A program made the translations under genes and the position numbers. Source: Desulfobacula toluolica Tol2 (GTDB lineage Bacteria > Desulfobacterota > Desulfobacteria > Desulfobacterales > Desulfobacteraceae). Taken from it: a stretch of 64,000 nt of DNA. Below are positions 1-22,250 of this stretch, one piece after another (positions within the stretch are counted from its first letter, which is position 1; each line of letters starts with the position of its first letter). The notes under the pieces are model-generated. The model had not been told where the DNA came from. It searched no databases and saw only the letters and a list, made by a program, of their open reading frames with translations. The stretch lies in NCBI RefSeq assembly GCF_000307105.1, contig NC_018645.1, forward strand, positions 4,970,001 through 5,034,000, read 5' to 3'.

Positions 1-2
1 TG

Positions 3-2717
3 GAAGACCCCGGGGAAGGCGCAAGAACAGGCGAATACCGGTTTGAACCTGTACAGGAACGCCTGGAATCACTGGTAAAACGTATCCGGCGATGGCGAAT
101 TCTCCAAAAAAAGGCCAATCACGAAAAAAAAATCACCATCGTGCTTCACAACAATCCCTGCAAAGGAGTGGAATCCACCGTGGGCATGGCCGTGGGCCTG
201 GATACATTTGAAAGCCTGGGGGCAACTATAAGGGCATTGGGTGCGGCCGGATATGATATTAAGGATTGCCCGGTTGAGGGTTTGGCTCTGAAAAACGCTG
301 TTTTTGAAAAAAAAGCATTTTCAGAATTCAGATGGACCACGGTGGATGAAATCGTGTCCAAAGGTGGTGGGCTGCATTTCATGGGCGCAGATGAATATCA
401 ACCCTATTTCAACGGTTTGCCCAAAGCAGCAAAAGAAAAAATTGAAAAGGACTGGGGACCATTTCCAGGCCAGGGAATGGTTTATGAAAAACAGGACCGA
501 AAAAACCTTGTTATCACAGGACTTTGTTTCGGCAATCTCAAAATTATGGTTCAGCCTAAAAGGGGATGTTATGGTGCCAAATGCAACGGTGAGGTGTGTC
601 GTATCCTCCATGAACCGGATTTGTCTCCACCCCACCACTGGCTGGCGTCCTATAAGTTTATCCGGGATACCTCGGATGCTGTTCTTCATTTTGGTGCCGA
701 AGGGGCATTGGAATACCTGCCCGGCAAGCGGGCCGCACTTTGCCAGACCTGTTTTCCGGATATTTCTCTGGGCGATTTACCCAATATCTATGTATATTGC
801 ATGGATATTCCCGGAGAGGGGCTCATGGCAAAACGACGGGCACAGGCCGTGATTGTGGATCATCTTTCTCCGGTTCTCAGCCACATGGGGGCAGATGAAA
901 ATCTCATTGAGCTTGAGAGCCTGCTTGCACAATACCAAAAGGCAGACCAGCTGGAGGAATCGGACCGCAGACAAAAACTCAAACAAAAGATGCTGCCCTT
1001 GATGGCTGAACTGGAACCGGATGAAAATAAAAAAGGATCAGACGATTTCGAAGATCGGCTCCATACCCTGGGCCGCAGGATCAGGCAGCTTAAAACGGCC
1101 TGTTTTCAAAGTGGGCTTCATGTCCTGGGCAAGGCCCCTGACGAAGAGGATATGAATGCCATGCTGGAAACACTGGAACAGACTGTCCGGGATGATGATC
1201 TCCTTGCCCGGGAAAAAATATTTTTTATTACCGAGAAATTGCAGCAGTGCCCAAGGGAGCTTGAAGCCGTTGTTCAATGCCTGGACGGGAAGTATCTTGA
1301 AGCAGGGCTTGGCGGTTCTTTTTACCAGGGAAAGCTTGAAACCCTTCCCACGGGCCGTAATTTTTATCCTGTTGATATTGCTGCTCTTCCCACAAAAACG
1401 GCATGGGAAACAGGAAAAATAATGGCAGACAAGCTGCTTGAAAAATATTTCACACAAGAGGGCGAATTTCCGGAAAATGTAGGGATCAGCCTTTGGAGTT
1501 CCGATGCCTTTAAGGCCGACGGAGAGCTGTTTTCACAAATTCTCTATCTTCTGGGGGTGTGTCCTGTATGGGCAGATAACGGCCGGGTCAAAGGTCTTGA
1601 TGTCATTGAGACAGACCGGCTGTTACTGACAACGGCAAATCATGAAACAATACACCGGCCCCGGGTGGATGTGACCATCCAGACCAGCGGTATTTTAAGG
1701 GATATGGTGCCCAATTTTTGTGATCTCATGGATGAGGCGGTGGTCATGGTCAGCCGCCTGGATGAACCCTCTGACGTTAATTATGTGGCAAAACGAACCC
1801 GGGAACAAATTCTGGAATTAAAGAAAAAACTGGGCAAAGACCTGCCTGAAGAGGCCATTGCCCGCATGGCCTGCTTCCGGGTTTTTTCTTCCAAGCCGGG
1901 AACCTACGGGCTTGGGGTCGGGCTTGCCCTGGATGCCTCGGCCTGGAAAAATAAAAATGACCTGGCCGAAGCCTATGTCAACTGGGGGGGATATGCTTAT
2001 GGATCGGAAAAAATAAGCCATGCCCTTGAAAATTACGGTTATGAGGCCCATGCCATCCTGGCCAGGCAGTTAAGGGATGTGGATATCTCCTATATGAAAC
2101 AGTCGTGTGTGGAATATGATGTTCTGGACTGTGGGGGATATGCCGTGTTCCAGGGTGGCATGGCAACAGCCGGTAATGCCCTTAAGAAAACCGGAAAAAA
2201 AATCAAGTTATACTGGGGAAGTGCCGGAACAGGTGAGGAAAAAGGAATTTGTGATTTAAAAGATGCAATAGAAAACAGTGCATTGACCAAATTATTGAAC
2301 AAAGACTGGCTGGAAAAAATAAAACCCCACGGATTCCAGGCTGCTTCATCCATTGCATCCAAGATCAACAATTTGTTTAAACTGGCTGCCACAACCGAAT
2401 CAGTGGATGATTGGCTCTTTGACCGGGTGGTGGACACCTATATTGCCGATGAGGCCAATGCCGCCTGGATGAAGTTACAAAATCCCTATGCCGTTGAAGA
2501 GCTGACCCGCAGGTTGCTGGAAGCCCATTCAAGAAAATTGTGGGAACCCGATGATCGGCGCCTGGAGCTTGTCCAATCCATGGCACTTGAGATCGAAGGG
2601 GACATGGAAGAGACCATGGGAGAGGTGAACTCAGAGTTCCAGGGAAGTCGGGTGGATGTCATGACAAAGGATGATGTGGAGAATTGGAATCCCGCATTTA
2701 TATTGGCCGGATCATAA
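3..2717 (+). CDS. CobN/BchH-family metal-chelatase large subunit, 5'-truncated by window edge (CobN-1)
   Basis: The reading frame is open from base 3, so this is the C-terminal 904 residues of a longer protein; the GTG at 141 is internal. Homology to CobN/ChlH is clear from the PPHH-W-L-SYK segment, the LEYLPGK motif, the DLPNIY segment and the AKRRAQA-IVDHL block, all of which recur in the full-length paralogue at 9002. CobN-type subunits bind the tetrapyrrole and metal while ChlI/ChlD-type AAA+ proteins supply ATP hydrolysis; both partner types are encoded downstream. Two oddities: the usual H-x-G-x-HG-x-x-EW motif reads HFGAEGALEY (about residues 228-237 of the visible part), so the second His is Glu, and a Cys-rich loop (CYGAKCNGEVC) precedes PPHH. 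The loop resembles what I recall of archaeal-type CobN. Substrate and metal are not determined. Confidence 0.88.
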   Translation, partial: EDPGEGARTGEYRFEPVQERLESLVKRIRRWRILQKKANHEKKITIVLHNNPCKGVESTVGMAVGLDTFESLGATIRALGAAGYDIKDCPVEGLALKNAVFEKKAFSEFRWTTVDEIVSKGGGLHFMGADEYQPYFNGLPKAAKEKIEKDWGPFPGQGMVYEKQDRKNLVITGLCFGNLKIMVQPKRGCYGAKCNGEVCRILHEPDLSPPHHWLASYKFIRDTSDAVLHFGAEGALEYLPGKRAALCQTCFPDISLGDLPNIYVYCMDIPGEGLMAKRRAQAVIVDHLSPVLSHMGADENLIELESLLAQYQKADQLEESDRRQKLKQKMLPLMAELEPDENKKGSDDFEDRLHTLGRRIRQLKTACFQSGLHVLGKAPDEEDMNAMLETLEQTVRDDDLLAREKIFFITEKLQQCPRELEAVVQCLDGKYLEAGLGGSFYQGKLETLPTGRNFYPVDIAALPTKTAWETGKIMADKLLEKYFTQEGEFPENVGISLWSSDAFKADGELFSQILYLLGVCPVWADNGRVKGLDVIETDRLLLTTANHETIHRPRVDVTIQTSGILRDMVPNFCDLMDEAVVMVSRLDEPSDVNYVAKRTREQILELKKKLGKDLPEEAIARMACFRVFSSKPGTYGLGVGLALDASAWKNKNDLAEAYVNWGGYAYGSEKISHALENYGYEAHAILARQLRDVDISYMKQSCVEYDVLDCGGYAVFQGGMATAGNALKKTGKKIKLYWGSAGTGEEKGICDLKDAIENSALTKLLNKDWLEKIKPHGFQAASSIASKINNLFKLAATTESVDDWLFDRVVDTYIADEANAAWMKLQNPYAVEELTRRLLEAHSRKLWEPDDRRLELVQSMALEIEGDMEETMGEVNSEFQGSRVDVMTKDDVENWNPAFILAGS

Positions 2718-2798
2718 GTTTAACCTTACATTAAAGCAGGTAATATATGAAAAATTATTTTTATGTTCCTTTTTTTTACTATTCAGGAATTGGATAAG

Positions 2799-3551
2799 AT
2801 GAATATTCAAGTAATCATTCATCATTCTTTTCTGGTCGCCTCCCTGCTCTATCTGATCAGCCTGATCATGGTGGCCGCAAAACAGAAAACCTGTGCTGCA
2901 TGTGTATTTGCAGCCGGTATGATATGCCATGCCGGTTCTCTGGCGTTGCGATACTGGACCTGTTTCCCGCTGCTGCCCTTATACCAGGGTCCGTTTTTTC
3001 TTGCGTTTGCAGTGGGCCTCATCGGTTTTCGGCCGGTTCTGTCTCGCTCCAACCTGCTGTCCCGGATCGTTCTTGTCAATTTGCTGTCCTGGTCTGCATA
3101 TTTATTTCCCAATGATTTTTATCTGCCGTTTTTGCAGTTTAAAACCCTGTTTGCCCATGGTTTCTTTTTGCTGGGAGTGGTGGGCAAATCCCTGTTTTTG
3201 CTGGCAGGGGCCGGGGCAGTCATGGTTCTTCTGGATAAAGGCGAGACGGGACAGGTAAAATTCGTGGGCCAGGCTGTGCTATGGGGTTTTTTTTTCTGGA
3301 CCCTGTCTGTATTTTCCGGTGCTTTCTGGTCCTGGTTGGGGTGGGGATCACCCGTTGTCTGGGATGATCCTTTGATGACCACAACAATGGCCACCTGGCT
3401 TTTATACTCCCTGATGCTTCACCTGCATCTTACGCGGTTTTCAGGTGCCGGGCCCAGGGCCTGGTTTGCCCTTTTGGGTGCCGTCTGGGTGTTTTGTTTT
3501 AATTGTGTGCCTGAACTGGGACCTTTCAGAATACCGGGGTGGCTCTCATGA
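2799..3551 (+). CDS. CcsA/CcmC-like integral membrane protein (haem-handling type)
   Basis: A polytopic protein of 250 residues with about eight hydrophobic segments. The WGSPVVWDDP stretch followed by an aromatic TM and HLHL resembles the tryptophan-rich WWD-type haem-binding region of CcsA/CcmC/CcmF proteins. The next gene is ResB-like and overlaps by ATGA, the same pairing as in System II cytochrome c maturation. The ATG at 2799 is preferred; an in-frame ATG at 2763 would add 12 residues. In CcsA/CcsB the pair moves haem across the membrane to apocytochrome c. Here the neighbours are a CobN subunit and an iron-siderophore/B12-type importer, so a dedicated role with a haem or other tetrapyrrole is a reasonable inference. 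It is shorter than typical CcsA. Confidence 0.7.
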   Translation: MNIQVIIHHSFLVASLLYLISLIMVAAKQKTCAACVFAAGMICHAGSLALRYWTCFPLLPLYQGPFFLAFAVGLIGFRPVLSRSNLLSRIVLVNLLSWSAYLFPNDFYLPFLQFKTLFAHGFFLLGVVGKSLFLLAGAGAVMVLLDKGETGQVKFVGQAVLWGFFFWTLSVFSGAFWSWLGWGSPVVWDDPLMTTTMATWLLYSLMLHLHLTRFSGAGPRAWFALLGAVWVFCFNCVPELGPFRIPGWLS

Positions 3552-4408
3552 AGGGATTAAAACAGATATGGAATTGGGCGGGAAATATTTATGTGACCAT
3601 GGGGATCATGGGGGTGATGATCCTGGATCTTCTGGCGGGATATGTCATGCTCAAATATCATGCCCATTTGTTTAACCCCATCAATGATCTGGGATTTCTC
3701 AAATGGTCTGCCACATGGGGTAAAGAATCCCTGGGAAAGACCGGGTGGCTGTTTATCCTAGTGGGGCTTCTGGCCGCACTGTCATTCAATACCTTTGCCT
3801 GCACCACGGATCGGGTGGTAAGCCTGTTGAAAAATCGTCACAGATTTAAAAGTCGGTCCCGGTTTGTTCTGCGGTTTGGTCCCCATGTCATGCATTACAG
3901 CATGCTGATCATGTTCCTGGGCTATCTGGTTTCCTATCTTTTTGCCGGCACCCATGTTGGAAAAGTCCTGTTGCCGGGGAAAACCATCCAGGTGTCCGGC
4001 AGCAGGATTACCCTTGAAACGCTGGATATTGAGTATTACACGGGAAATCGTCTGCTGTATATGGAAAAACAGGCCATTGATATCCGGGCAAAATTGTTAC
4101 TTCAGGCAGGTGAAAACACCAAACTTGCAGTGCTTTCTTTTAACCGGCCGGTCCGGTTTCAGGGCCTGAGCATCCATTTAAAGGATTTTGCACCCAAAAC
4201 CCGGAGCAACGGCATGGACAGGCGACAATTTGTCACATTGATTATTAAACAGGACCCGGGAGTGGGGTTTTATTTTACAGGAATGGTCTGTTTTACCCTT
4301 GGACTATTGATGTATGCCTGGGAAAAAATTTTTTCAGAAAAACGGTATGGGTTTGGTCGACAAAGGCAATACATGTCCAATCAGACCGGACAGGAGGAAA
4401 CAACATGA
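3548..4408 (+). CDS. ResB/Ccs1-like membrane protein
   Basis: A protein of 286 residues starting at the ATG that overlaps the upstream stop (ATGA). It shows hydrophobic segments at about residues 14-35 and 60-80, a third near 115-135, a soluble beta-rich middle domain and a final TM near 245-265. This is the ResB/Ccs1 layout in short form. Aromatic and His residues lie near the third membrane segment (FGPHVMHYSM). ResB proteins partner CcsA in haem delivery. With the CcsA-like gene immediately upstream and a lipoprotein binding protein overlapping downstream, the pair appears to be transcribed with the import system. Classical cytochrome c maturation remains possible, but no other Ccs gene or apocytochrome lies nearby. 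Confidence 0.7.
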   Translation: MKGLKQIWNWAGNIYVTMGIMGVMILDLLAGYVMLKYHAHLFNPINDLGFLKWSATWGKESLGKTGWLFILVGLLAALSFNTFACTTDRVVSLLKNRHRFKSRSRFVLRFGPHVMHYSMLIMFLGYLVSYLFAGTHVGKVLLPGKTIQVSGSRITLETLDIEYYTGNRLLYMEKQAIDIRAKLLLQAGENTKLAVLSFNRPVRFQGLSIHLKDFAPKTRSNGMDRRQFVTLIIKQDPGVGFYFTGMVCFTLGLLMYAWEKIFSEKRYGFGRQRQYMSNQTGQEETT

Positions 4409-5532
4409 GAGTAAACGTAAAACCGGTGCTGCTGATTTTTATAGGTCTGGCCATGGCTTTTTTTACAGGATGTTCCAGCGACAGTGAGTCACCGGTCAAA
4501 GAAAAAGAGACAAAAGAGTTAAGTTTTATGAGTATCGGCAGTTTTGCCGTTAACCCACTGGCCAATGGATGCACCGAGGTCAGGGACGGGGCCGGCAGGA
4601 CCTTGATACTGGTCCCCCGGGACGCGGATATACCTTCGGGGTATGAAAAATTCCAGGTGGTTCGGACCCCGGTTGAACGGGTGGTGGCCTATGGCTTTTT
4701 TGACATTGCCATTCTCAAGGCATTGGGGGTGATAGAGTCACTCAAGGGTGTTCTGGCCGAAAAAGAGGACTGGTTTATCCCGGAAGTGGTACGGGGAATG
4801 GAAGAGAATGCCATTACCTTTCTGGGGGATTATAATGCCGTGGATTTTGAACAATTGCGTAAAGTCAGGCCTGAACTGGTCCTGACCTGGGACATGTCCA
4901 TTCTTCCCATGCTGGATGAAATGGGGGTCGCCTGTGTGATCACCACTACGCCCGTTGCCATGTGCCTCAATGCCCGGATGAAGTTTATCCGTTTTCTGGC
5001 CCCGTTTTTTAATAAACAAGCCCAGGCAAATCAATATTTTGAGCGAGTCTCCAATGCCCTGGAACAGATCCGGAAAAACACTGCCAAGGCAAGTTATAAA
5101 CCCAAGGTCATGTGGGGAGACATCTATGAAAAGCGGGTACTGGTGGAACCGGGAAACGCCTGGGTGGGTGAGCTGGTTGAACTGGCATTGAGTGATTATC
5201 AGTTTGAAGATATTTTCGGCAAATCCTGTGTCGAGATTTCCCTGGAGCGATTTTTATATTCCGGCCAGGATGCCGAGATTTTTTTCACCTACCGGACCCC
5301 GAAAAGCGGGGCAAGTTCAAAGGCGGCTCTGGCACGGGCCAATCCGTTGTTGGCCGGTGTGAAACCCTTGAAGGACGGCAGGGTGTATTCCCCCATGCCC
5401 CATTATACCCAATCCGGGGACAAGCTGGATGAAATATTGACGGATATTGCCGCCATTCTTCATCCCGAGTGTTACCCGGGGCACAAACTTGGCTATTTCA
5501 GGCAATTGCCGGATACAGACCCGAAAAGCTGA
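4405..5532 (+). CDS. ABC importer substrate-binding lipoprotein, BtuF/FepB class
   Basis: A protein of 375 residues with a lipoprotein signal: basic N-terminus, hydrophobic core, then a lipobox ending FFTGCSSD with Cys at about residue 23. The mature part has the class III binding-protein pattern (VERVVAYGF, ALGVIESLKG, then LRKVRPELVLTWD). Such proteins capture B12, haem or ferric siderophores in the periplasm. The start overlaps the ResB-like stop by ATGA, and the FecCD-type permease and ATPase follow after a repeat element. Given CbiZ and CobN genes in the island, a corrinoid or other metallo-tetrapyrrole is the best guess for ligand; sequence alone does not decide it. Confidence 0.85.
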   Translation: MRVNVKPVLLIFIGLAMAFFTGCSSDSESPVKEKETKELSFMSIGSFAVNPLANGCTEVRDGAGRTLILVPRDADIPSGYEKFQVVRTPVERVVAYGFFDIAILKALGVIESLKGVLAEKEDWFIPEVVRGMEENAITFLGDYNAVDFEQLRKVRPELVLTWDMSILPMLDEMGVACVITTTPVAMCLNARMKFIRFLAPFFNKQAQANQYFERVSNALEQIRKNTAKASYKPKVMWGDIYEKRVLVEPGNAWVGELVELALSDYQFEDIFGKSCVEISLERFLYSGQDAEIFFTYRTPKSGASSKAALARANPLLAGVKPLKDGRVYSPMPHYTQSGDKLDEILTDIAAILHPECYPGHKLGYFRQLPDTDPKS

Positions 5533-5560
5533 AGGCCTTTAAAATCAATACAGGATAACT

Positions 5561-5644: not shown

Positions 5645-5659
5645 GAAAGACAAGGACAT

Positions 5660-6718
5660 ATGACAACAACCACTATTCAACCTACTGATATCACAGCACT
5701 TCGAAAGCTTTCGGGAAAGCGCCGCAGCATCACGTATACGCTTTTTTGTGCCATCCTTCTGATAATCATGACAGCCAGTGTTATGGTCGGCTCTGTTCCT
5801 ATATCTTTAGACGAACTTGTTTCCATTCTGGTCACCCATGACACTGCCGGCGTCAATGGGTTTATCATATGGAAAATCCGTTTGCCCAGGGCTATTGCCG
5901 CTGCACTTGGCGGGGGGTATCTTGCCGTCGCAGGTCTTCTGCTTCAGGTTTTTTTCCGCAATCCCATTGTGGGACCTTTTATTCTGGGAATTTCTTCCGG
6001 GGCCACATTAATGGTTTCCTTTGTGATGCTCACCTCCCTGACCCTTGGATTTACTGTCCTCAATCCCTTTATGGCAACCCTGGCAGCCTTTACAGGAGCA
6101 TATGGCGTCATGGTCATTGTAGTGGCCATTGCCGGCCGGGTGAAAAATGCGGTCACACTCCTTATCGTGGGATTGATGATGGGGTATCTTTGCCATGCCG
6201 TTACCAGTGTGCTGGTGGCATTTGCAGAAAAAGAAAAAATAAAGGGGTTTGTGCTGTGGCAATTGGGTAGTTTTTCAGGATTCAGATGGAGTGAAATCGA
6301 AATCATGATCATCGCAGGCGGGCTGATATGCCTTCTGGTCTATGCCCTGGCCAAACCCCTGAATGCTTTTCTTTTAGGAGAAGAATATGCCGCATCCATG
6401 GGGGTGAATATTAAATTATTCCGGTTGCTTATTCTTTTGTCCTCCTGTGCCCTGGCCGGGATGATCACTTCTGTGGCCGGTCCTGTGGCCTTTGTGGGCC
6501 TGGCTGTTCCCCACATGGTGCGGCTGGCTTTTGGCACCTCCGACAACCGGATACTGATACCGGGTTCGCTCCTGGTGGGGGCAGTGGTTACCTGTTTGTG
6601 TGATTTTATCGCCCGAATGGTGTTTTCACCGGTGGAACTGCCCATATCCGCGATCACTGCATTTTTCGGGGCACCCATCGTGATCGGCCTTCTATTAAAA
6701 CGAAAGGTGGTATTATAA
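5660..6718 (+). CDS. FecCD/BtuC-family ABC importer permease
   Basis: A 352-residue polytopic membrane protein of the FecCD family: RLPRAIAAALGGGYLAVAG near residues 75-93, NPIVGPFILGISSGA, then SVAGPVAFVGLAVPHMVR and a C-terminal ELPISAITAFFGAPIVIGLL. These match BtuC/FhuB/FepD-type permeases with about ten TM helices. A good ribosome-binding site (AAGGA) precedes the ATG. The stop overlaps the ATPase start (TAATG). It forms the membrane channel for the lipoprotein at 4405 and the ATPase at 6718. Confidence 0.92.
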   Translation: MTTTTIQPTDITALRKLSGKRRSITYTLFCAILLIIMTASVMVGSVPISLDELVSILVTHDTAGVNGFIIWKIRLPRAIAAALGGGYLAVAGLLLQVFFRNPIVGPFILGISSGATLMVSFVMLTSLTLGFTVLNPFMATLAAFTGAYGVMVIVVAIAGRVKNAVTLLIVGLMMGYLCHAVTSVLVAFAEKEKIKGFVLWQLGSFSGFRWSEIEIMIIAGGLICLLVYALAKPLNAFLLGEEYAASMGVNIKLFRLLILLSSCALAGMITSVAGPVAFVGLAVPHMVRLAFGTSDNRILIPGSLLVGAVVTCLCDFIARMVFSPVELPISAITAFFGAPIVIGLLLKRKVVL

Positions 6719-7932
6719 TGAACAACACGTCGATTTTATCAACCCGGAATCTTTGTGTCGGATACGAAAAAAAACAAGTACTCAAAGACCTTGACCTTGA
6801 TTTTTACCCGGGAAAATTTGTATCCCTGTTAGGACCCAACGGGGCCGGTAAGACCACTTTGTTGCGGACCCTTTCCAAACACCTGCCTCCCCTTAGCGGG
6901 AAGATCACGATTCATGGAAAGGATTTATCCCTGATCCGGTCCGATGATCTGGCCCGGATAATGTCTGTTGTGTTGACACAAAGGGTGGCTCCCCCCCTTT
7001 TTCGTGTTTATGATTTTGTGGGCATGGGCCGTTACCCCCATACAAGTTGGACCGGCAGGATGAACAGTCAAGACGATGATGCGGTCATGGAATCTTTAAA
7101 TTTAGTCCGGGCACAACATCTGGTTTTTCGGGATCTTTCCACCCTGAGTGACGGGGAACGGCAAAAGGTTCTTATTGCAAGGGCCCTGGCCCAGGAACCC
7201 GCCATTATCCTGTTGGACGAACCCACCATGCACCTGGACTTGAAACACCGTATGGAAGTCATGTCCATTCTCCAGGGGCTTTGCCGGGAAAAAGGCATTT
7301 GTGTGGTTGCCTCACTCCATGATGTGGAAGTGGCAGCCAAGGTATCGGACCGGGTAGTTCTGATTAAGGATGGCATGCTTCACGCATTCGGATCGCCGGA
7401 AGATGTCCTCCAGGAGGATACGGTATCTGACCTGTATGATTTTTCCAATGCCTGTTTCAATAGGATGCTGGGAAATATTGAGATCCGGAACCGGGCTGAC
7501 AAAGCCAGGGTGTTTGTCATCGGGGGGATGGGCAGTGCATCGGTTCTCTATCGCCTGCTCTCCAAAAAAGGATATGAGGTTATCACAGGCGTGCTGTTGA
7601 AAAACGATATTGATTATTTTGTGGCCAGATCCCTGGGAATCCAGTGCCTGGTTCAGGACAGCCTGGATATCATTTCCAGCCAGAGTGTTCAGGGCGCTGT
7701 TGAGGCACTCAAGGCATGTGATTTTATCATTGATACCGGGTTTGAAACCGCTGGCCTGAACCGTGCTAATCTGGATCTGATCACCACGGCGCTTGCCCTT
7801 AAAAAGCCGATTTTCTGCATGGGCAGCCCTAAAAACAGGGAAATGTTGAACCGCCCGGACCTGTCTGATGTATGGTTTACAAAAACGGAATCCCGCCTGG
7901 TAGACCTGGTGGAAGAAAAAGAAATCGCCTGA
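6718..7932 (+). CDS. FecE/BtuD-type ABC importer ATPase with extra C-terminal domain
   Basis: Walker A GPNGAGKTT lies at residues 39-47, the signature LSDGERQKV near 142, Walker B LLDEPTMHLD near 162 and the H-loop SLHDVE near 196. These place it with the importers of B12, haem and siderophores. The usual family length is about 255 residues; this protein has 404. The extra part, from about residue 262, looks like a Rossmann-type fold (VFVIGGMGSASVLYRLL then GYEVITGVLLKNDIDY) and contains FIIDTGFET and PIFCMGSPKNREM. I do not recognise the domain; it may sense a nucleotide or the imported ligand. Overlaps the permease gene by one base. Confidence 0.88.
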   Translation: MNNTSILSTRNLCVGYEKKQVLKDLDLDFYPGKFVSLLGPNGAGKTTLLRTLSKHLPPLSGKITIHGKDLSLIRSDDLARIMSVVLTQRVAPPLFRVYDFVGMGRYPHTSWTGRMNSQDDDAVMESLNLVRAQHLVFRDLSTLSDGERQKVLIARALAQEPAIILLDEPTMHLDLKHRMEVMSILQGLCREKGICVVASLHDVEVAAKVSDRVVLIKDGMLHAFGSPEDVLQEDTVSDLYDFSNACFNRMLGNIEIRNRADKARVFVIGGMGSASVLYRLLSKKGYEVITGVLLKNDIDYFVARSLGIQCLVQDSLDIISSQSVQGAVEALKACDFIIDTGFETAGLNRANLDLITTALALKKPIFCMGSPKNREMLNRPDLSDVWFTKTESRLVDLVEEKEIA

Positions 7933-7934
7933 CC

Positions 7935-8984: not shown

Positions 8985-9001
8985 AAAAAGGATAAAATAA
9001 A

Positions 9002-12787: not shown

Positions 12788-12788
12788 A

Positions 12789-14522: not shown

Positions 14523-14568
14523 TGATACCCATGAAATTGACCAGCAGATTCAAACCAAAGGAAAAAAA

Positions 14569-16602
14569 ATGAGAAACATATTTCCCTTTTCAGCCATCAT
14601 CGGCCAGGAAGACTTAAAGCTGTCACTGATCCTTACCGCCATTCATCCCGGCATTGGCGGTGTCCTGATCCGGGGGGAAAAGGGTACGGCCAAATCCACG
14701 ATCGTCCGGGGTCTGGCGGATGTACTGCCAAAAATCCGGGTGATCGAAGGATGTGCTTTTAATTGTAATCCAGACAGCTTGTTTTTATGTGATACCTGTA
14801 AACAGGGGATACCTGAAGACAGGATCATCACCCTCCGCAAGCAGGTGGTCACCCTGCCGTTGAATGCCACCGAGGACCGGGTGGCCGGTGGTATGGATTT
14901 TAACCGGGCAGTAAAGGAAGGCAGAAAAATCTTGCTGCCGGGGCTTCTGGCCCAGGCCCACCGGGGAATTCTTTACGTGGATGAAATTAATCTTTTGGAT
15001 GACCATATTGTGGATATTATCCTGGATGCAGCCGCTTCCGGGGAAAACCATGTGGAGCGGGAAGGACTTTCCTTGTGCCATGAAGCAAAATTTCTCCTGG
15101 TGGGGACCATGAACCCGGAAGAAGGGGATCTGCGTCCTCAGCTCCTGGATCGGTTCGGATTATGCGTGGAGGTGGCTTCGGAAAAAGATCCGGAAGCAAG
15201 GATCACCCTCATGGAACAGCGGGAATTGTATGACCGTGATCCAACGGCCTTCAGGGTCGGCTGTGAATCAAAGACCCAAAAGCTGGCTCAAAAGATTGAA
15301 AAGGCAAAAAAATTGTTGCCCCGGGTCCGGATGCGGTCCCATTTGCGGTCTTTTATTGCAGAACTCTGTAGCAGCAACCATGTGGCAGGCCACAGGGCTG
15401 ATCTTGTCATTGAACAGGCTGCCCGGGCCCATGCAGCACTTCTGGGACAGGTGGATGTAGAGATTGATGACATCAGTGTGGTGGCAAAATTTGCCTTGCT
15501 GCACAGGAAGCGGGAGGCTGATCCGCCACCGCCACCGCCACCACCGCCTTCTGAAAAGGACCGGAAGGATGATCCCCCCTCTGAACCGGATGAACCAAAT
15601 AAACCGGATGAACCGAATCAGGAAGGGGACCCTGAACAAGAAAACCCGCCACCGGCTGAATCCGGGAAACCGGACTCAGAAAATCCTGAAGAAAATGACC
15701 GGGATGATCCGGATCAGGATACAAAAAAAGATCTGCCCCAGCCTAAAGAGGATGTCAAAGAGCAGATATTTGACATCGGTGCCACATTCAAGGTTAAAAA
15801 AATTACCACGCCCAGGGACCGTAAGATGCGGCGGGGATCGGGTCGGCGTTCCCGCACCCGGGTATCCCGGAAACAGGGCCGGTATGTAAAAAGCGGGATG
15901 AAAAGACTCCATAATGACGTGGCCTTTGATGCCACGCTCAGGGCTGCAGCCCCTTACCAGCTTCGGCGGGAGGTGCCGGAAGGACTTTTTATCAGCCTTA
16001 AACCCGAGGATATCAGGGAAAAAATCAGGGAAAAAAGAATTGGAAATTTCCTGGCTTTCCTGGTGGATGCCTCCGGATCAATGGGGGCAAAAGGGCGGAT
16101 GGCCGCTTCCAAGGGGGCTGTTTTATCCCTTCTTCTGGATGCTTACCAGAAACGGGACCGGGTGGCAATGGTTTCGTTCAGAAAATCAGAGGCCTATGTC
16201 AACCTGCCCCCTACAAGTTCAATAGAGCTTGCGGCCCAGTATCTTAAGGAAATGCCCGTGGGCGGCAGAACCCCCCTGTCCGCCGGCCTGGACAAGGTGT
16301 TTCAGATGGTGGGGAATGTGCTGCTCAGGGATCCGGCCACCCGTCCGATTGTTTTGATTATCACGGACGGAAAAACCAATGTGGCAATGGGACAGGGCAA
16401 GCCTGTGGAAGAGGCCATGACTTTTGCAGCCAGGATGGGACAGGATGAACGGATCAAGTATATCGTGGTGGACACCGAAGCCGATGGACTGGTGCGCTTC
16501 GGGCTTGCCGGGAAACTGGCTGCTGCGGCCGGTGCCCAATATTGTAAAATAGATGATTTGCAGGCCGACTCCCTTGTCAGTCTGGTTAAAGATACCCAAT
16601 AA
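14569..16602 (+). CDS. Fused ChlI-ChlD type chelatase AAA+/VWA subunit
   Basis: A 677-residue protein. The N-terminal AAA+ domain has Walker [10 protein letters not shown] at residues 36-44, Walker B ILYVDEINLLDD near 132-143 and [19 protein letters not shown] Cys-rich insert (CAFNCNPDS then CDTC) follows Walker A. A linker of polyproline and acidic repeats spans about residues 313-400, and a VWA domain begins near 490 with the MIDAS motif DASGSMG. This domain order is that of BchD/ChlD but with an intact ATPase, as in many putative cobaltochelatases. It would drive the CobN subunits. Ribosome-binding site AAAGG before the ATG. Confidence 0.9.
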   Translation: MRNIFPFSAIIGQEDLKLSLILTAIHPGIGGVLIRGEKGTAKSTIVRGLADVLPKIRVIEGCAFNCNPDSLFLCDTCKQGIPEDRIITLRKQVVTLPLNATEDRVAGGMDFNRAVKEGRKILLPGLLAQAHRGILYVDEINLLDDHIVDIILDAAASGENHVEREGLSLCHEAKFLLVGTMNPEEGDLRPQLLDRFGLCVEVASEKDPEARITLMEQRELYDRDPTAFRVGCESKTQKLAQKIEKAKKLLPRVRMRSHLRSFIAELCSSNHVAGHRADLVIEQAARAHAALLGQVDVEIDDISVVAKFALLHRKREADPPPPPPPPPSEKDRKDDPPSEPDEPNKPDEPNQEGDPEQENPPPAESGKPDSENPEENDRDDPDQDTKKDLPQPKEDVKEQIFDIGATFKVKKITTPRDRKMRRGSGRRSRTRVSRKQGRYVKSGMKRLHNDVAFDATLRAAAPYQLRREVPEGLFISLKPEDIREKIREKRIGNFLAFLVDASGSMGAKGRMAASKGAVLSLLLDAYQKRDRVAMVSFRKSEAYVNLPPTSSIELAAQYLKEMPVGGRTPLSAGLDKVFQMVGNVLLRDPATRPIVLIITDGKTNVAMGQGKPVEEAMTFAARMGQDERIKYIVVDTEADGLVRFGLAGKLAAAAGAQYCKIDDLQADSLVSLVKDTQ

Positions 16603-16610
16603 GGGTGATA

Positions 16611-16702: not shown

Positions 16703-16720
16703 AAATTAAAGGAAATTTTG

Positions 16721-17770
16721 ATGAAAAACAAACCCATATTCCCCTTCACGGCCATTGTGGGACAAGAAGAAATGAAGTTGGCATTGATACTCAATATTAT
16801 AAACCCCACCTTGTCAGGCGTACTCATCAGGGGAGAAAAAGGCACGGCAAAGTCCACAGCGGTAAGGGCCCTGGCTCAAATTCTGCCGAACATTGAGCGG
16901 GTAAAGGCGTGTCCGTTCCAACTGGCCGTAAACGAGACAGGAACAATCTGTAACGCCTGTGTCTCAACGGATTGCCCGGCCCGATCCGATAGCGCAATAC
17001 TTGAAACCACTCTTTTGGGAATCAGTGTTATTGAATTGCCCGTGGGTGCCACAGAAGACCGGGTAGTGGGAACGATGGATCTGGAACATGCCTTGAAAAA
17101 AGGGGAAAAAAGGATCGAGCCCGGCCTTCTGGCAGCGGCCCACCGGGGTATTCTCTATGTGGATGAGGTGAATCTGCTGGATGACCATGTGGTGGATGTA
17201 CTCCTGGATTCCGCAGCCATGGGGGTGAACACCATTGAAAGGGAAGGTGTTTCTTTTTCCCATCCGGCCAGGTTTACCCTTGTGGGAACCATGAACCCTG
17301 AAGAAGGGGAGTTGCGGCCCCAGCTCCTGGACCGTTTCGGACTCTGTGTCAATATTCAGGGCGCGTTGGAGCCTGAAGACCGGGTGGCGGTCATGGAACG
17401 GCGTGCTGCCTTTGATGAAGACCCGGACGGTTTTTGCCGGCAATGGGAAAACAGGTCCCAGTACCTGTCCCAAAAGATCGAACAGGCCATGGATCTTTAT
17501 CCCCGGGTGACCATTGAAAGACCGCTGCTTTATGAAATCGCTTCTTTCTGCCTGGATGTGGGGGTAGACGGTCACCGGGGGGATATCATCATCCTGAAAA
17601 CCGCCAAGACCCTGGCGGCCTACAACGGCCGGGACCAGGTGGATTCGGCAGACATTGAACGGGCCGCAGAGCTTGCCCTTCCCCACAGGATCAGGCGCAA
17701 ACCCCTCCAGGAGGTGGCCCGGGACATTCATGCCGTCAGAGAACAAAACCGGGGGGCCAAGGCTGTCTAA
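16721..17770 (+). CDS. ChlI/BchI-like chelatase AAA+ subunit
   Basis: A protein of 349 residues from the ATG at 16721, which is supported by AAAGGA eight bases upstream (an in-frame TTG just before it is less likely). Walker [10 protein letters not shown], Walker [14 protein letters not shown] and the sensor region [19 protein letters not shown] are present. A Cys-rich insert (CNACVSTDC) sits where the fused subunit has its Cys pairs. BchI-type ATPases form hexameric rings with ChlD and power metal insertion by the H/CobN subunit. Having both a stand-alone I subunit and an I-D fusion, plus two CobN paralogues, suggests either two chelatase complexes or a mixed ring. Confidence 0.9.
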
Positions 17771-17787
17771 TAAAGATGCCGTAAAAC

Positions 17788-18639
17788 ATGGATGCCATAG
17801 AAATAGAAGATTTAAAAAAAGTGTATAAGGATGTGACAGCCTTGGGGGGAGTCAACTTGAGAATCAAGCAGGGAGAGCTGTTTGCCTATCTGGGCCCCAA
17901 CGGGGCCGGCAAGACCACCACAATCCGGATTCTCACGGGACTTACCCGGCCCGGCTCCGGTAGATGCCGCATCAATGGGTTTGATATCCAGAAAAATGTC
18001 CGGGATGCCAAACGCCAGTATGGGCTTGTGCCCCAGGCCGTAAACCTGGACCAGGAATTGACGGTGGCTGAAAATCTCATGATTCACGGCCGGCTTTTCC
18101 AGATGAGTGCTTCAGCCATCCGTAAAGAAACGGACCGGCTTTTGGGGTATGTGGATTTAAAAGATCGAAAAAAAACACCGGTAAAAAATCTGTCCGGCGG
18201 TATGAAACGGCGCCTCATGATTGCCCGGGCCCTGTTGCATGCACCGGGAGTGCTGTTTCTGGATGAACCCACGGCAGGGCTTGATCCGGGTATCAGGCGG
18301 CGGATCTGGGCCCTGATAAAAAAAATACAGTCCCAGGGCACCACTGTATTTTTAACCACCCATTATATTGAAGAGGCGGAATTTCTGGCCGACCGGGTGG
18401 CATTTTTGGACAAGGGACAAATCGTGGCCCTGAACACGCCGGAAAATTTTATGAAAGCCATTGGCAGCTGGGCCATTGACCGGCTCAAGGAGGATGTCAT
18501 GGAAACGGTTTATTTCAAGGACAGACAGTCGGCCGAGGCGTTTAATACCCGGAATCTTGCACTATATACATTGCGCCGGGTCAATCTGGAAGATGCCTTT
18601 TTAAGTCTGACCGGCAAGAAGGTGGGTGGGACATCTTGA
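17788..18639 (+). CDS. ABC-2 type transporter ATPase (DrrA/CcmA-like)
   Basis: A protein of 283 residues with Walker A GPNGAGKTT, signature LSGGMKRRL and Walker B VLFLDEPTAGLDPGIRRR near residues 153-170, plus THYIEEAE. LSGGMKRRL and the C-terminal part characterise the exporter-type DrrA/NodI group. It follows the ChlI gene by 17 bases, and its permease partner lies directly downstream. What it moves is unknown; in context a modified tetrapyrrole, a removed metal or a by-product are possible. Confidence 0.88.
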   Translation: MDAIEIEDLKKVYKDVTALGGVNLRIKQGELFAYLGPNGAGKTTTIRILTGLTRPGSGRCRINGFDIQKNVRDAKRQYGLVPQAVNLDQELTVAENLMIHGRLFQMSASAIRKETDRLLGYVDLKDRKKTPVKNLSGGMKRRLMIARALLHAPGVLFLDEPTAGLDPGIRRRIWALIKKIQSQGTTVFLTTHYIEEAEFLADRVAFLDKGQIVALNTPENFMKAIGSWAIDRLKEDVMETVYFKDRQSAEAFNTRNLALYTLRRVNLEDAFLSLTGKKVGGTS

Positions 18640-18673
18640 AATCAAAGCGGATAAATCAATAGGAATTATTAAC

Positions 18674-19411
18674 ATGATACACGCCATATCAGCAATCTAT
18701 ATACGGGAGATGCTGATCCTAAAGAAAAGGATCACCCGGCAGATCCCGTCCTGGTCCATCTCCCCTTTATTGTATCTTATTGCCTTTGGGTATGCCGCAG
18801 GCCATGCCGCTCCGGTTGAGGGGCATACATATATGCAATTTTTAATCCCGGGCCTTATTGCCATGAGCAGCATGACCCAGGCCTTTGCCATTGCCAGTGA
18901 TATTAATATTGCAAGATTTTACTGGCATATTTTTGAAGAATTCCAGGCAGCCCCTATTTCAGACTTTGCCTATGTGACGGGCGAGGTTCTGGCAGGCATG
19001 ACCCGGGCGTTTTGTTCTGTCTTGGTGATTATGGTCCTGGGGGGTCTGTTCCGGGTGGATGTTCATTATAACATGGTATTTTTGGTCGCAGTCCTGCTCA
19101 ACAGTTTTGTGTTTGCATCCCTGGCCGTGGGGCTTGCCATGGTTGTCAAATCCCATGCAGACCAGGCCATGCTCAATTCTTTTGTGATCACTCCCATGGC
19201 ATTTCTGGGGGGGACGTTTTTCCCGGTTGACAGACTGCCGGTATGGGCGGGAAAAATCCTTTCTTTTCTTCCCCTGACCCATGCTTCATCCGTCATTCGT
19301 TCTGCCTGCCTGGGAAAAGAAACCGACCCTTTATCCTGGCTGGTGCTGTTAGTCATCGGTATGGCCTTTTTTGCCGCAGCGATTTTCTGTGTTGAAAAGG
19401 CAAAAGATTAA
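18674..19411 (+). CDS. ABC-2 type transporter permease
   Basis: A protein of 245 residues from the ATG at 18674, chosen because AGGAATT lies at the right distance; an in-frame ATG at 18626 overlaps the ATPase gene. It has six hydrophobic segments and the ABC-2 signature region PMAFLGGTFFPVDRLP near residue 175. QFLIPGLIAMSSMTQAF is typical of DrrB/NodJ permeases. It pairs with the ATPase at 17788. Confidence 0.88.
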   Translation: MIHAISAIYIREMLILKKRITRQIPSWSISPLLYLIAFGYAAGHAAPVEGHTYMQFLIPGLIAMSSMTQAFAIASDINIARFYWHIFEEFQAAPISDFAYVTGEVLAGMTRAFCSVLVIMVLGGLFRVDVHYNMVFLVAVLLNSFVFASLAVGLAMVVKSHADQAMLNSFVITPMAFLGGTFFPVDRLPVWAGKILSFLPLTHASSVIRSACLGKETDPLSWLVLLVIGMAFFAAAIFCVEKAKD

Positions 19412-19414
19412 TTT

Positions 19415-19497
19415 TATTATGAAAGAACTTCTAACTTGCTGGAATTAGATCTCTCTTATTCTTAGTTTTGACAGAATTATCTGCCATGGTTATTAGT
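19415..19497 (-). repeat. Dispersed leader-type repeat, copy C (degenerate, reverse orientation)
   Basis: Read on the minus strand it starts ACTAATAACCATGGCAG and ends near AGTTCTTTCATA, matching both ends of copy A (ACTAACGCCATGGCAG, GAGTTCTTTCATA). The middle is diverged. It is the only copy whose downstream end does not point at the following gene. Confidence 0.55.
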
Positions 19498-19512
19498 GAA
19501 AGATAAAAATGA

Positions 19513-20679
19513 ATGGATAAACAGATGCATTTGAAAACCTATGATGATGTGCTGGAACTTTACCGGAACCAGAAAAAAATTTATGCAAAATTTTTAACCC
19601 CCCACCGGGTAATCTCCACCTGCCGTGTCAACGGCGGGCTGAGAGATGACATAAGCGTCCTGCTCAACCACCAGTCCTGTGAGCCCTGTAATCATATGGG
19701 CGCACATACCAAAAAAATTACCCAAGAGCCTGAAGCTTATCTGGAGCAGATCTGCACCCGGGAAGGACTGGACTGGCGGTATTGTGCCTGTCTGGGCACG
19801 GCTGCCAACATGAATTATGCCGCCATATACAAGGAGCAGTTTCAAAATCTCTGGGTGATGGCAGTTGCCACGGGCGGGGTGGAAGCCAATGCCGGGCGGG
19901 CGGGGGATGATGCGCATTATTATGAAAAAGACGGGGCCTGGGTCCATGTGGATGATATCGGCAAAACGCCAACACCTGGTACCATCAATATAATGATCTT
20001 TATCAATAAACCGTTAAACTGCGGTTCCATGGCCCGGGCCATTGTCACGGCCACTGAAGCCAAAACCGCAGTTCTCCAGGAATTAGCCGTGAATTCCCGG
20101 TATTCCGACGGTCTTGCCACAGGAACCGGGACAGACCAGATCGCTGTTGCCGCAAGATTAACTGATGAACCAGAACTGACAAGTGCAGGCAAGCATACCA
20201 AGCTTGGAGAACTTATCGGAAAAGCCGTTAAAAAAGCGGTTCGCAAGACCCTTTGCCTTCAGAATCGCCTGAGCCCGGAGGGTCAACGGTCAGTAAAGAT
20301 CCATATCGAACGGTTTGGAACAGATAAAAAAGAGATGATCCAGGGCATCTGCAGTCATTTAAATGATGACCTTGCCCGGCTGGCAAAGGATAATATTGAC
20401 AGCATCAACCGTGATCCCCTTATTGTGGCTGCAGTAGCAGCCTTGGTTCATCTCAGGGATAAATCCGCCTGGGGCATTTTGCCGGCAACCTGCATGAAGG
20501 AAATTTTTTCAAGCTTTGGAGCCCAGGTTGCCATGGCCGTGTCCGGCAGGACGGATCAAATAGAAACCTATCGACTAAAACTGTCGCAAAACCTGTCCAA
20601 CACCAGCGACAAGGCAATGCTGGCATTGATTTTCAAAGCACTTGCCATGGGATTTGAGGAAAAATGGAAAATCACTTAA
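19513..20679 (+). CDS. cbiZ: Adenosylcobinamide amidohydrolase (CbiZ)
   Basis: A protein of 388 residues with the CbiZ hallmarks: RVNGGLRDD near residue 38, NIMIFINKPL, ARAIVTATEAKTAVLQEL and ATGTGTDQIAVAA near 201. CbiZ cleaves the aminopropanol amide of adenosyl(pseudo)cobinamide to give adenosylcobyric acid, letting a cell salvage and remodel corrinoids. The C-terminal part, about residues 230-388, extends beyond the core domain. Its location strongly suggests the imported ligand of the island is a corrinoid. The ribosome-binding site is weak; an in-frame ATG four codons later is an alternative start. Overlaps the next gene by 16 bases. Confidence 0.85.
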   Translation: MDKQMHLKTYDDVLELYRNQKKIYAKFLTPHRVISTCRVNGGLRDDISVLLNHQSCEPCNHMGAHTKKITQEPEAYLEQICTREGLDWRYCACLGTAANMNYAAIYKEQFQNLWVMAVATGGVEANAGRAGDDAHYYEKDGAWVHVDDIGKTPTPGTINIMIFINKPLNCGSMARAIVTATEAKTAVLQELAVNSRYSDGLATGTGTDQIAVAARLTDEPELTSAGKHTKLGELIGKAVKKAVRKTLCLQNRLSPEGQRSVKIHIERFGTDKKEMIQGICSHLNDDLARLAKDNIDSINRDPLIVAAVAALVHLRDKSAWGILPATCMKEIFSSFGAQVAMAVSGRTDQIETYRLKLSQNLSNTSDKAMLALIFKALAMGFEEKWKIT

Positions 20680-22250
20680 ATACGGCGTTGATTCATCTGG
20701 ATGTGCGGTACAAAGATCCAAAGACCAATTGCCGGGAATTGATCCGGCTTAACCGGGAAGCAGCCGGGAACGGATCACAAATCATTGTGAATACGGAAAT
20801 GGGGATATCCGGGTATAGTTTTCAATCCAGGGAAGATATTTTTCCCTATACCCAAACAGATCGCGATGAGATCATAAGACAGATCAAAGAGATTGCCCGG
20901 GAATTTCGCTCCTATATCTGTCTGGGGTTTGCGGAAAAGGACCAGGAAAGCGCTCTTTTTTACAACACGGCCATGGTCATCGACCCGGTGGGTGAAATCA
21001 TTCTGAAATACCATAAGATCAATGCGGAAGCCAGGTGGGCCTGTCCGGGTGATCCGGTCCAGAATAATGTATTTGACACACCCTGGGCAAGAATAGGGGT
21101 ACTGATCTGCTCTGATACCTACCACAGCCTTATGCCCAGGCAGACAGCGCTCAAAGGGGCCGATCTCATCCTGGTGCCGGCCAACTGGCCTTCATCCGGG
21201 CTGGACCCCGAAGAATTATGGGCCATTCGTGCAAAAGAAAACGGGATCTATATTGCTGCGTGCAACAGGGGAGGCAAAGATCGGATGATGAGTTGTGAAA
21301 ACGCGCCTTCGGGCGTCTTTTCCCCTGCAGGAGAGACCCTCATATCCCTTTGCAGTAAAGAGTCGGCCATTGTCAACTGCCGCCTGCCCCTGACCCGGGG
21401 CAGACTTTCCGGAATCATCCGTCCTGATATCATGGCGGACCGAAATCCTTCAGCCTGGGGTCCCATCTATCTTGATATGCGCCATGTCGCCTATGGAGGC
21501 GGGGATCTGACCTCTTATTATGATCTTGCAACGCCGTCTCCTTTCCGGGTGATTTGCCATACTGCAATGGGGGACGACTTTTCGGAGCAGAATCTGTACA
21601 ACCGTGTAAAGGAACTTTCCAACACCCCTTTAAACGACTTTGTTCTCCTGGTTTTCCCACAGGTGGTTACAGCCGATCCGACAGACCTGGTTGCACGGCT
21701 TTCAGATGAGATTGCCCACAAAAAAACAGCGGTCTGCTTTAGTATCAACAATGGGCAAAACAGCCTTTTTCTTATTACGCCCTTGGCCGGTGCAGTGATG
21801 CATACCATTGACGGCAAAGGATACGGGACAGGCCCTGAAGGGATTTCCATTGTGGATACAGGCCCGGTCAGGCTTGGACTGTGCAGTCCTGAAGAGTTAC
21901 GCCACCCGGAAACAGGGGTGACCCATTCAAAATTGGGGTGTGACCTTTTGATCTCTTCCACGGGACACATAACGCCGGACAACCGGCAGGTATATGCTTG
22001 CCGGAGCCTGGATAAAATTTGTGTGGCGGTTGCCGGAAGCAATACCGCATTTATCTGCCAGCCGCCTGAAGGACACAACCGGTGGAAGGAATCTTTTGCG
22101 GAAACCCCGAACCTTTGCGAGGACAGGATCGATCTTGAAAAGATACGGGACAAGACCTTTCAGGACAGAATTGATTTTAAGACCCTGTTGAACAGCAACC
22201 CCACGCAAGCTGGGAAAAGCAACCGCCTTCAAGATGCCGGTTTTTTATGA
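20664..22250 (+). CDS. Carbon-nitrogen hydrolase (nitrilase superfamily) with duplicated, degenerate second domain
   Basis: A protein of 528 residues. The first half is a nitrilase fold with the triad visible: Glu in NTEMGISGYSF (about residue 45), Lys in KYHKIN (about 117) and Cys in VLICSDTYH (about 148). The second half, from about residue 285, repeats the fold loosely: VLLVFPQVV where the Glu motif should be, and LGLCSPEELRHPE where the Cys motif should be, so the Cys is kept but the Glu is not. These enzymes hydrolyse amides or nitriles. With CbiZ immediately upstream and overlapping, an amide on a corrinoid side chain is a plausible substrate; this is inference. GAGG precedes the ATG. 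Confidence 0.8.
   Translation: MENHLNTALIHLDVRYKDPKTNCRELIRLNREAAGNGSQIIVNTEMGISGYSFQSREDIFPYTQTDRDEIIRQIKEIAREFRSYICLGFAEKDQESALFYNTAMVIDPVGEIILKYHKINAEARWACPGDPVQNNVFDTPWARIGVLICSDTYHSLMPRQTALKGADLILVPANWPSSGLDPEELWAIRAKENGIYIAACNRGGKDRMMSCENAPSGVFSPAGETLISLCSKESAIVNCRLPLTRGRLSGIIRPDIMADRNPSAWGPIYLDMRHVAYGGGDLTSYYDLATPSPFRVICHTAMGDDFSEQNLYNRVKELSNTPLNDFVLLVFPQVVTADPTDLVARLSDEIAHKKTAVCFSINNGQNSLFLITPLAGAVMHTIDGKGYGTGPEGISIVDTGPVRLGLCSPEELRHPETGVTHSKLGCDLLISSTGHITPDNRQVYACRSLDKICVAVAGSNTAFICQPPEGHNRWKESFAETPNLCEDRIDLEKIRDKTFQDRIDFKTLLNSNPTQAGKSNRLQDAGFL

Follow-up and report, generated by a model that had tools for sequence, protein, structure and literature searches.

Why should a bacterium keep two CobN-type chelatase subunits, together with ChlI and ChlD partners, among genes for tetrapyrrole import and salvage? 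We addressed this question for a gene island of Desulfobacula toluolica Tol2 that begins, with cobN1, 969 bases 5' of a 64,000-nucleotide stretch of DNA, referred to here as the window (G000:C1:4970001-5034000 of a single-contig genome of 5,197,905 bases; G and L numbers are our handles for genomes and loci). The island is one set of 16 genes, all on the plus strand and all intact open reading frames (ORFs), in the order cobN1, ccsA-like, resB-like, btuF, btuC, btuD, radical SAM, cobN2, TonB receptor, chlID, chlI, ABC-2 ATPase, ABC-2 permease, cbiZ, amidase, and a 121-amino-acid (aa) ORF. These include every gene listed in the initial annotation, and the tight spacing that it reported is borne out: 12 of the 15 junctions overlap or span at most 46 bases, and the other gaps are 127, 115, and 101 bases. 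We consider it highly probable that the island is a vitamin B12-repressed operon for corrinoid processing as such.

The initial annotation had suggested looking upstream for a cobalamin riboswitch, and one is indeed present 5' of cobN1 at window positions -1257 to -1081 (RF00174; G000:C1:4968743-4968919, plus strand), with a score of 109.1 bits (gathering score, 31.5). Within the window itself, no Rfam family matches at its gathering score. A second, divergent cobalamin riboswitch (106.2 bits) precedes a TonB receptor gene on the minus strand. The source genome contains at least 11 such riboswitches, 74 of 166 candidates having been scored; L277 and L279 are further riboswitch loci with TonB receptor-like and BtuC/BtuD-like genes. 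Among 20 CobN2-type loci from the 18 genomes with a radical SAM partner, 16 carry a cobalamin riboswitch at most 11 kb upstream on the same strand, as judged from the positions of riboswitch and CobN and not from the strand of every intervening gene. These loci belong to G000, G033, G248, G217, G148 (two), G012 (two), G147, G189, G156, G094, G068, G223, G243, and G236; for G147, the riboswitch contig contains the 5' part of a CobN gene, which we assumed to be the same gene. At each of the four loci where no riboswitch was seen (G157, G268, G072, and G125), the contig ends at most 6.1 kb upstream of CobN. Similarly, five of six named loci, Desulfovirgula included, have the riboswitch, and the Cutibacterium locus has none.

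The ligand had been proposed to be either a corrinoid or heme. The riboswitch and CbiZ make a corrinoid very probable and, together with the grouping of CobN2 with B12-type CobN proteins (see below), make heme unlikely. Import of heme or another porphyrin with HmuS-like removal of iron, an explanation that we rate as very improbable, would account for the conserved heme-handling residues of the CcsA-like and ResB-like proteins and for the weak matches of the TonB receptor to heme receptor models (89.8 and 83.1 bits), but it conflicts with the riboswitch and CbiZ, with the lack of HmuS residue His1209 in both CobN proteins, and with the additional loss of His538 in CobN1. The CcsA-like protein has a WWD-like motif (W194, G195, P197, W200, and D202) flanked by H132 and H220; motif and histidines are invariant in four sequences, although the Pfam score is below the cutoff. 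Its predicted fold is a poor model (predicted local distance difference test score [pLDDT], 58) with no PDB match at an E value of ≤0.001. The conserved residues of the ResB-like protein are C88, H116, and H119.

To which CobN subfamilies do the two subunits belong? We placed them in a midpoint-rooted FastTree phylogeny of 126 CobN proteins, a sample of proteins of at least 600 aa that takes in few of the actinobacterial loci and does not include HmuS or BchH. The tree has five groups: group A (n = 11; motif LDHYYEF or close to it), group B (n = 30; periplasmic type), presumed B12 CobN (n = 7), group C (n = 35), and group D (n = 43). The seven reference proteins come from Streptomyces, Salinispora, Rubrobacter, Chloroflexus, Spirosoma, and two further metagenome-assembled genomes (MAGs), and their role in B12 synthesis is presumed. 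CobN2 falls in group C, which joins the presumed B12 CobN with a support of 1.00; CobN1 falls in group D and not with the B12 type. Likewise, CobN2 exceeds the cutoff of TIGR02257 (974.6 versus 822.05 bits) and full-length CobN1 falls below it (647.4 bits). CobN2 scores 764.8 and 659.5 bits against the two full-length CobN proteins in the PDB, 504.6 bits against ChlH, and 347.6 bits against HmuS.

The initial annotation had offered HmuS, a CobN-like protein of heme loci, as a precedent for reverse chelation. HmuS removes iron from heme and is described as NADH dependent; its catalytic His is His538 of HFG(T/A)HG, found superfamily-wide, and its second metal-liganding His is His1209 of LSLDHxxEFMGG (PMC12583661). 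The His538 position is occupied by His in CobN2 (GKHG) and by Glu in CobN1 (HFGAEG), but a superfamily-wide His does not discriminate. At the His1209 position, read by motif alignment with HmuS itself outside the alignment, CobN2 has Asp and CobN1 has Gly. This column is His in all 11 proteins of group A and Asp in 29 of 30 proteins of group B, all 7 presumed B12 CobN, and all 34 readable proteins of group C; the 35 readable members of group D have Cys (18), Gly (9), Ser (5), or Ala (3). Further, neither protein has the methionine-rich insertion of HmuS: the PF02514 match of CobN2 is unbroken over residues 127 to 1240, and the two PF02514 matches of CobN1 lie 48 bases apart. By eye, neither begins with a signal-peptide-like sequence. 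Membership of CobN1 or CobN2 in the HmuS family is not supported. As a separate observation, the loci of group A, whose CobN proteins carry the HmuS-like LDH motif, are L117, L119, L122, L124, L126, L127, L129, L130, L133, L134, and L139, and 8 of these 11 have a ChlI or ChlID homologue scoring above 60 bits.

Both subunits carry residue markers. In CobN1, Glu replaces the catalytic His and Gly occupies the second metal-ligand position. A CX4CX4C motif is present in all 43 group D proteins by aligned columns (42 of 43 by pattern search) and in none of the 82 readable others. The Glu is restricted to CobN1 and a relative in G012 among 125 readable proteins; a close relative in G223, read later, also has it, and the relative in G147 keeps His. 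Its presence in three of the four known members of the CobN1 subfamily, from three families of the phylum, argues modestly, with only four sequences, that the substitution is not a random lesion. CobN2 has four extra cysteines, Cys399, Cys610, Cys1027, and Cys1100, found in 27/28, 27/30, 30/31, and 31/31 of the group C proteins that carry SCTD and in none of the seven presumed B12 CobN. Elsewhere in group D, a split CobN gene spans L274 and L275 (positions 1 to 10215; G217), where the L275 part clusters with CbiQ, a double ABC ATPase, a Gate-domain protein, ChlID, and ChlI; in L272, a weak, below-cutoff Gate-like protein follows a group D CobN.

What, then, do these chelatases do beside import and salvage genes? 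Post-import remodeling, as first proposed, remains the best reading: the riboswitch leads a conserved unit of import, salvage, and chelatase genes, and the host's own enzymes make CobN an extra. The source genome encodes CbiD and two strong CbiK homologues, and CbiD and CbiK occur in 19 and 20, respectively, of 21 hand-chosen CobN-bearing genomes; with CbiK and CbiD in the host, CobN is therefore not needed for early cobalt insertion. We propose that low coenzyme B12 would permit expression through the riboswitch, that the TonB receptor and BtuFCD would carry a corrinoid into the cytoplasm, and that CbiZ would remove its nucleotide loop and the amidase would trim further amide side chains. CobN2, with ChlI, the ChlI-ChlD fusion, and ATP, would then exchange the central metal, most likely by inserting cobalt into corrins that arrive cobalt-free or with another metal. 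CobN1 may hold or hand over the ring without catalysis, a role suggested by the loss of both metal-contacting residues, and the ABC-2 pair could export a by-product. This scheme gives no step to the radical SAM protein or to the CcsA-like/ResB-like pair.

For the direction of metal exchange, insertion is a tentative choice, held with somewhat less than even confidence. It is favored by the family of CobN2, by AAA+ partners like those of insertion chelatases, and by the B12 context, including the riboswitches and the induction of a similar Dehalobacter operon on corrinoid starvation (see below). It is also favored because cobalt corrins are inert, resisting removal of the metal unless the ring is destroyed, and because cobalt-free corrinoids exist in nature, being produced by some purple sulfur bacteria without a cobalt supply (PMC6771967). 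Several observations weigh against it. Insertion gives no account of the exporter, the amidase, the second CobN, the radical SAM protein, or the CcsA-like/ResB-like pair; the host is already equipped with CbiD and two good CbiK; no importer gene matches a B12-specific model above its cutoff; and the island genes include no CobW-type cobalt chaperone. The cluster of G156 points both ways. In favor of insertion, the radical SAM-cobN2 pair stands there in a plus-strand run with CobD, CbiC-like, CobF (232.7 bits, cutoff 195.8), CbiE-CbiT, CobI, CobM, and CbiG-like/CobJ genes, the CbiG-like and CbiC-like matches being below their cutoffs, and CbiD was not found in the genome. Against it, the run begins with CbiK, BtuB, and BtuF-like genes, and the pair may serve salvage there and not de novo synthesis; a second binding-protein-like gene has as its top match the heme binder IsdE, weakly (54 bits, cutoff 299). 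As a side observation, this region (L084 and L271; G156:C7:140001-180000), with CobF, CbiG-like, CbiK, radical SAM-CobN2, and a split group D CobN, is perhaps a mixed early/late B12 pathway.

The G156 context, along with the family of CobN2, ChlI, ChlID, and the riboswitch, would suit a conventional late-insertion cobaltochelatase that serves B12 synthesis by the cell itself and merely happens to lie beside transport genes. We find this improbable: the host's CbiD and CbiK belong to the early-insertion route, the island itself lacks genes for corrin-ring synthesis, and CbiD is as frequent in the chosen CobN genomes as stated above.

A different view starts from the genes that insertion leaves unexplained. 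CbiZ and the amidase might dismantle imported corrinoids, CobN might extract their cobalt at the expense of ATP, the ABC-2 pair might export the ring, and the cobalt might feed CbiK. We regard such cobalt recovery as somewhat unlikely but to be taken seriously; it accounts for the exporter, the amidase, and CbiK. In Cutibacterium, an unrelated downstream exporter pair of another type (ABC_membrane) stands where the ABC-2 pair stands elsewhere. Further, positions 4210 to 15905 of L012 (G000:C1:4012001-4032000) hold a riboswitch, BtuB, a BtuF-CbiZ fusion, an HmuS-like CobN, DUF2162 (a predicted transporter), an ExbB-like protein, DUF2149, and an amidase, with CbiK upstream and no BtuCD within the locus. 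The CobN, the fusion, and the amidase have signal-peptide-like starts by eye, so L012 looks like a periplasmic second copy of the CbiZ, CobN, and amidase functions. The 30 group B loci include a CbiZ-containing gene in 14, DUF2149 in 18, DUF2162 in 19, and a CbiK homologue in 7, and no BtuC or BtuD homologue at the thresholds used, several of the stretches being short. Should corrinoid processing at these loci take place outside the inner membrane, the freed cobalt could enter the cell. Removal of iron from heme by HmuS would be a precedent (PMC12583661).

Several points speak against cobalt recovery. It would be wasteful for a B12-starved cell able to reuse the ring, cobalt corrins do not readily give up their metal (PMC6771967), and CobN2 is nearer to B12-type CobN by bit scores and tree. 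HmuS depends on NADH with no AAA+ partner described in the available part of PMC12583661, whereas the island has ChlI and ChlID. The amidase occurs in only 1 of the 30 periplasmic-type loci (L012), and the L012 CobN is the sole group B member with Gly in place of Asp at the His1209 column. BtuCD from other loci could serve the group B loci; indeed, a second BtuF-CbiZ fusion (L278:7292-9517) stands after a CbiK gene and before BtuC and BtuD. A wider suggestion, which we consider unlikely, is that cobalt is removed enzymatically twice, by a periplasmic HmuSTUV-like set with BtuB and BtuF-CbiZ and by an ATP-driven, cytoplasmic CobN1/CobN2 system that expels the empty ring. Import, export, and a chelatase in one B12-controlled unit could also fit a cobaltophore cycle, with a cobalt-free corrin exported, reloaded outside, and reimported. 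We know of no precedent for such a cycle, the host takes up cobalt early (CbiK and CbiD), and the empty ring would itself require demetallation; we give this idea hardly any credence. Cobalt insertion after import remains our preferred, if tentative, direction.

How widely is the gene set shared? The initial annotation had proposed a survey of co-occurrence across the phylum and had named independent mobility of the genes as a finding that would refute its reading. PF02514 (CobN) is found in 81 of 296 phylum genomes, with about two candidates at most scored per genome. The radical SAM protein (E ≤ 1e-40; 18 genomes) and the amidase (E ≤ 1e-30; 13 genomes) occur only within these 81; because the genomes are related, these counts are not independent. 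The radical SAM gene lies at most 2 kb from a CobN gene in 15 of 19 cases. ResB-like proteins (E ≤ 1e-3) occur in 54 of the 296 genomes; the strongest 11 (≥95 bits, that of the island included) are all in CobN genomes, and weaker ones often are not. The 35 CobN2-type loci, of which three are second copies of a counted record and many are truncated at contig ends or suffer from poor gene calling at high GC (guanine-plus-cytosine) content, carry btuD (20), radical SAM (19), btuF (16), btuC and chlID (14 each), chlI, resB, and the ABC-2 ATPase (10 each), cbiZ and the ABC-2 permease (8 each), ccsA (7), and amidase and btuB (5 each). Of the 18 radical SAM genomes, 13 additionally encode a group D CobN; none was seen in G148, G157, G236, G243, or G248.

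Among the best 80 of at least 591 loci, the top named relative is a Desulfobacterium MAG (74% identity to CobN2), and Desulfobulbus elongatus stands at 63%. Desulfovirgula and Cutibacterium avidum (46%) keep CobN2, radical SAM, and ChlID together. This recurrence in other genera indicates more than chance. The set is nevertheless modular: in G094, the adjoining radical SAM and amidase genes lie about 152 kb from the CobN2 gene, and distant CcsA/ResB-like pairs adjoin TonB receptor genes with no CobN on the stretch read (L082 and L083). The genes can therefore part company, yet they co-occur strongly with CobN.

The radical SAM protein has a CX3CX2C motif and seven SPASM cysteines, all individually conserved in ≥85% of 19 homologues; the homologue in G156 lacks the CX2C pair. 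Its AlphaFold model (pLDDT, 82) has anSME as the top PDB fold (template modeling score, 0.75), and the predicted fold is nearest to anSME and sactipeptide maturases, enzymes whose substrates are proteins or peptides. A precursor peptide was sought in five intergenic stretches of the island, which gave only unsupported ORFs of 12 to 36 aa. We also considered CobN2 Cys1100 as the target of a PapB-like thioether modification and rejected it as the general target, because the radical SAM gene also adjoins CobN genes that encode SSDD or SDDF instead of SCTD (L115, L107, and L182). The second half of the amidase resembles, by eye, a degenerate copy of its CN_hydrolase first half. At L276 (6872-8922; G220), an amidase homologue adjoins an ATP:corrinoid adenosyltransferase gene (PF02572), an arrangement that further links the amidase to corrinoids.

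Table 1. Genes of the island, all on the plus strand, with positions in the window (negative numbers lie 5' of it) and supporting matches
Feature	Position	Strand	Length, match, or other basis
cobN1, CobN-type subunit	3..2717 in window, start at -969 (G000:C1:4969031)	+	1228 aa
CcsA-like membrane protein	2763..3551	+	PF01578 23.2 bits, below cutoff 29.9; conservation
ResB-like membrane protein, short form	3539..4408	+	PF05140 36.6 bits
BtuF-type substrate-binding protein	4405..5532	+	PF01497 62.3 bits; no NCBIfam model above cutoff
BtuC/FecCD permease	5660..6718	+	PF01032 262.6 bits; top NCBIfam BtuC model, 202.6 bits, below cutoff
BtuD-type ATPase with C-terminal extension	6718..7932	+	top NCBIfam corrinoid ABC transporter ATPase, 228 bits, below cutoff
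Radical SAM protein, full SPASM Cys set	7872..8984	+	PF04055
cobN2, CobN-type subunit, GKHG and SCTDYYNYYGG	9002..12787	+	TIGR02257 974.6 bits (cutoff 822.05); tree
TonB-dependent receptor, BtuB-like	12789..14522	+	top NCBIfam TIGR01779 TonB-B12, 106.5 bits, below cutoff
ChlI-ChlD fusion (AAA+ and VWA/MIDAS)	14569..16602	+	TIGR02442 789.5 bits, above cutoff 779.45
ChlI AAA+ ATPase	16718..17770	+	TIGR02442 477.8 bits, TIGR02030 432.1 bits, both below cutoff
ABC-2 exporter ATPase (DrrA/NodI type)	17788..18639	+	PF00005; TIGR01188 284.6 bits, below cutoff
ABC-2 exporter permease	18626..19411	+	PF01061 82.4 bits
CbiZ adenosylcobinamide amidohydrolase with C-terminal extension	19513..20679	+	PF01955 216.1 bits
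Nitrilase-superfamily amidase	20664..22250	+	PF00795 (CN_hydrolase) 101.2 bits, residues 8-226 of 528
121-aa ORF, overlaps amidase end	22234..22599	+	resembles part of a GDPD-family phosphodiesterase

The remaining features of the region can be given briefly. Walker and MIDAS letters are present by eye in the ChlI-ChlD fusion. The terminal 121-aa ORF has no Pfam or NCBIfam match of its own and scores 103 bits against a protein of L270 (G065) that is itself a PF03009 GDPD protein. Past 22.6 kb, the genes are on the minus strand (an M24 peptidase and an RlmL-like protein). The GC content is 0.498 in the island and 0.413 in the rest of the window, a contrast that might suggest a recent foreign origin, but upstream 2-kb stretches reach 0.53. 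Just 5' of the island, at window positions -12834 to -4090 (L008:7166-15910), two pairs of ORFs have identical starts (MENHKINSVQEI and MKTNSLFQS), which suggests a tandem duplication. Elsewhere in the source genome, L011 has matches to group II introns (629-955 and 3475-4349) close to an HmuS-like CobN locus. Promoter and terminator predictions for window positions 1 to 20000 (35 and 36, against 22.6 [standard deviation, 4.5] and 27.1 [standard deviation, 5.4] in shuffled sequences) were not used as evidence.

The locus ties two CobN subfamilies to corrinoid import, nucleotide loop cleavage, and B12 sensing, and residue markers now separate the CobN subfamilies. Insertion of cobalt would allow anaerobes to rescue cobalt-free corrins. 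Its removal would make corrinoids a cobalt mine in sulfidic sediments, which are poor in free cobalt, and corrin demetallation without ring destruction would, if true, be new to chemistry and biology. The initial annotation was not aware of a description of this exact gene set. The general idea is in fact in print, since CobN with corrinoid salvage or transport genes is already known from Dehalobacter (PMC4285132) and Chlorobium (PMC8620254); the wider set was not found in the literature searched, nor was any earlier description of a Glu-type CobN, the CX4CX4C marker, the link to radical SAM and amidase, or the periplasmic copy.

Compared with known systems, the island's CobN proteins share a superfamily with HmuS, and CobN2 retains the HxGxHG His. 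HmuS, however, has membrane ends and depends on NADH, and it carries His1209 and the methionine-rich insertion, both of which are missing from CobN1 and CobN2; these two share an operon with ChlI and ChlID. In Porphyromonas, hmuYRSTUV encodes HmuY, a TonB receptor, CobN, a hypothetical protein, a MotA/TolQ/ExbB protein, and DUF2149 (PMC10434189), and a BtuS-type CobN has been proposed to act in metalloporphyrin salvage (PMC6460266, citing Rodionov 2003). The cobaltochelatase CobN of B12 synthesis (TIGR02257; PDB 7c6o and 9uk9) is closer to CobN2, which scores above the family cutoff and whose group joins this type in the tree. It works with CobS and CobT, whereas CobN2 has the four extra cysteines and finds its ATPase partners, ChlI and the ChlI-ChlD fusion, within the operon.

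The closest parallels combine these chelatase genes with corrinoid salvage, for which the island has the riboswitch, CbiZ, and a BtuFCD-type importer whose models score below NCBIfam cutoffs. In Chlorobium, a CobN/BchHID cluster adjoins cobalamin transport genes and so resembles the island in its CobN and ChlI/ChlD-like proteins; insertion of cobalt into exogenously acquired cobalamin has been speculated for Chlorobaculum tepidum, a suggestion repeated in PMC8620254. Chlorobium differs in being a phototroph with true magnesium chelatases, and the available part of PMC8620254 does not mention CcsA/ResB, radical SAM, or amidase. Operon-2 of Dehalobacter restrictus and its counterpart in Acetobacterium woodii combine a riboswitch, a FepBCD/BtuCDE-type importer, CbiZ, CobN, and magnesium-chelatase subunits (PMC4285132). 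Compared by its description, operon-2 has one CobN and two CbiZ, with CcsA/ResB, radical SAM, and amidase unmentioned in the available part of that paper. On corrinoid starvation, transcript of the Dehalobacter operon increases 346-fold and its protein 46-fold (PMC4285132).

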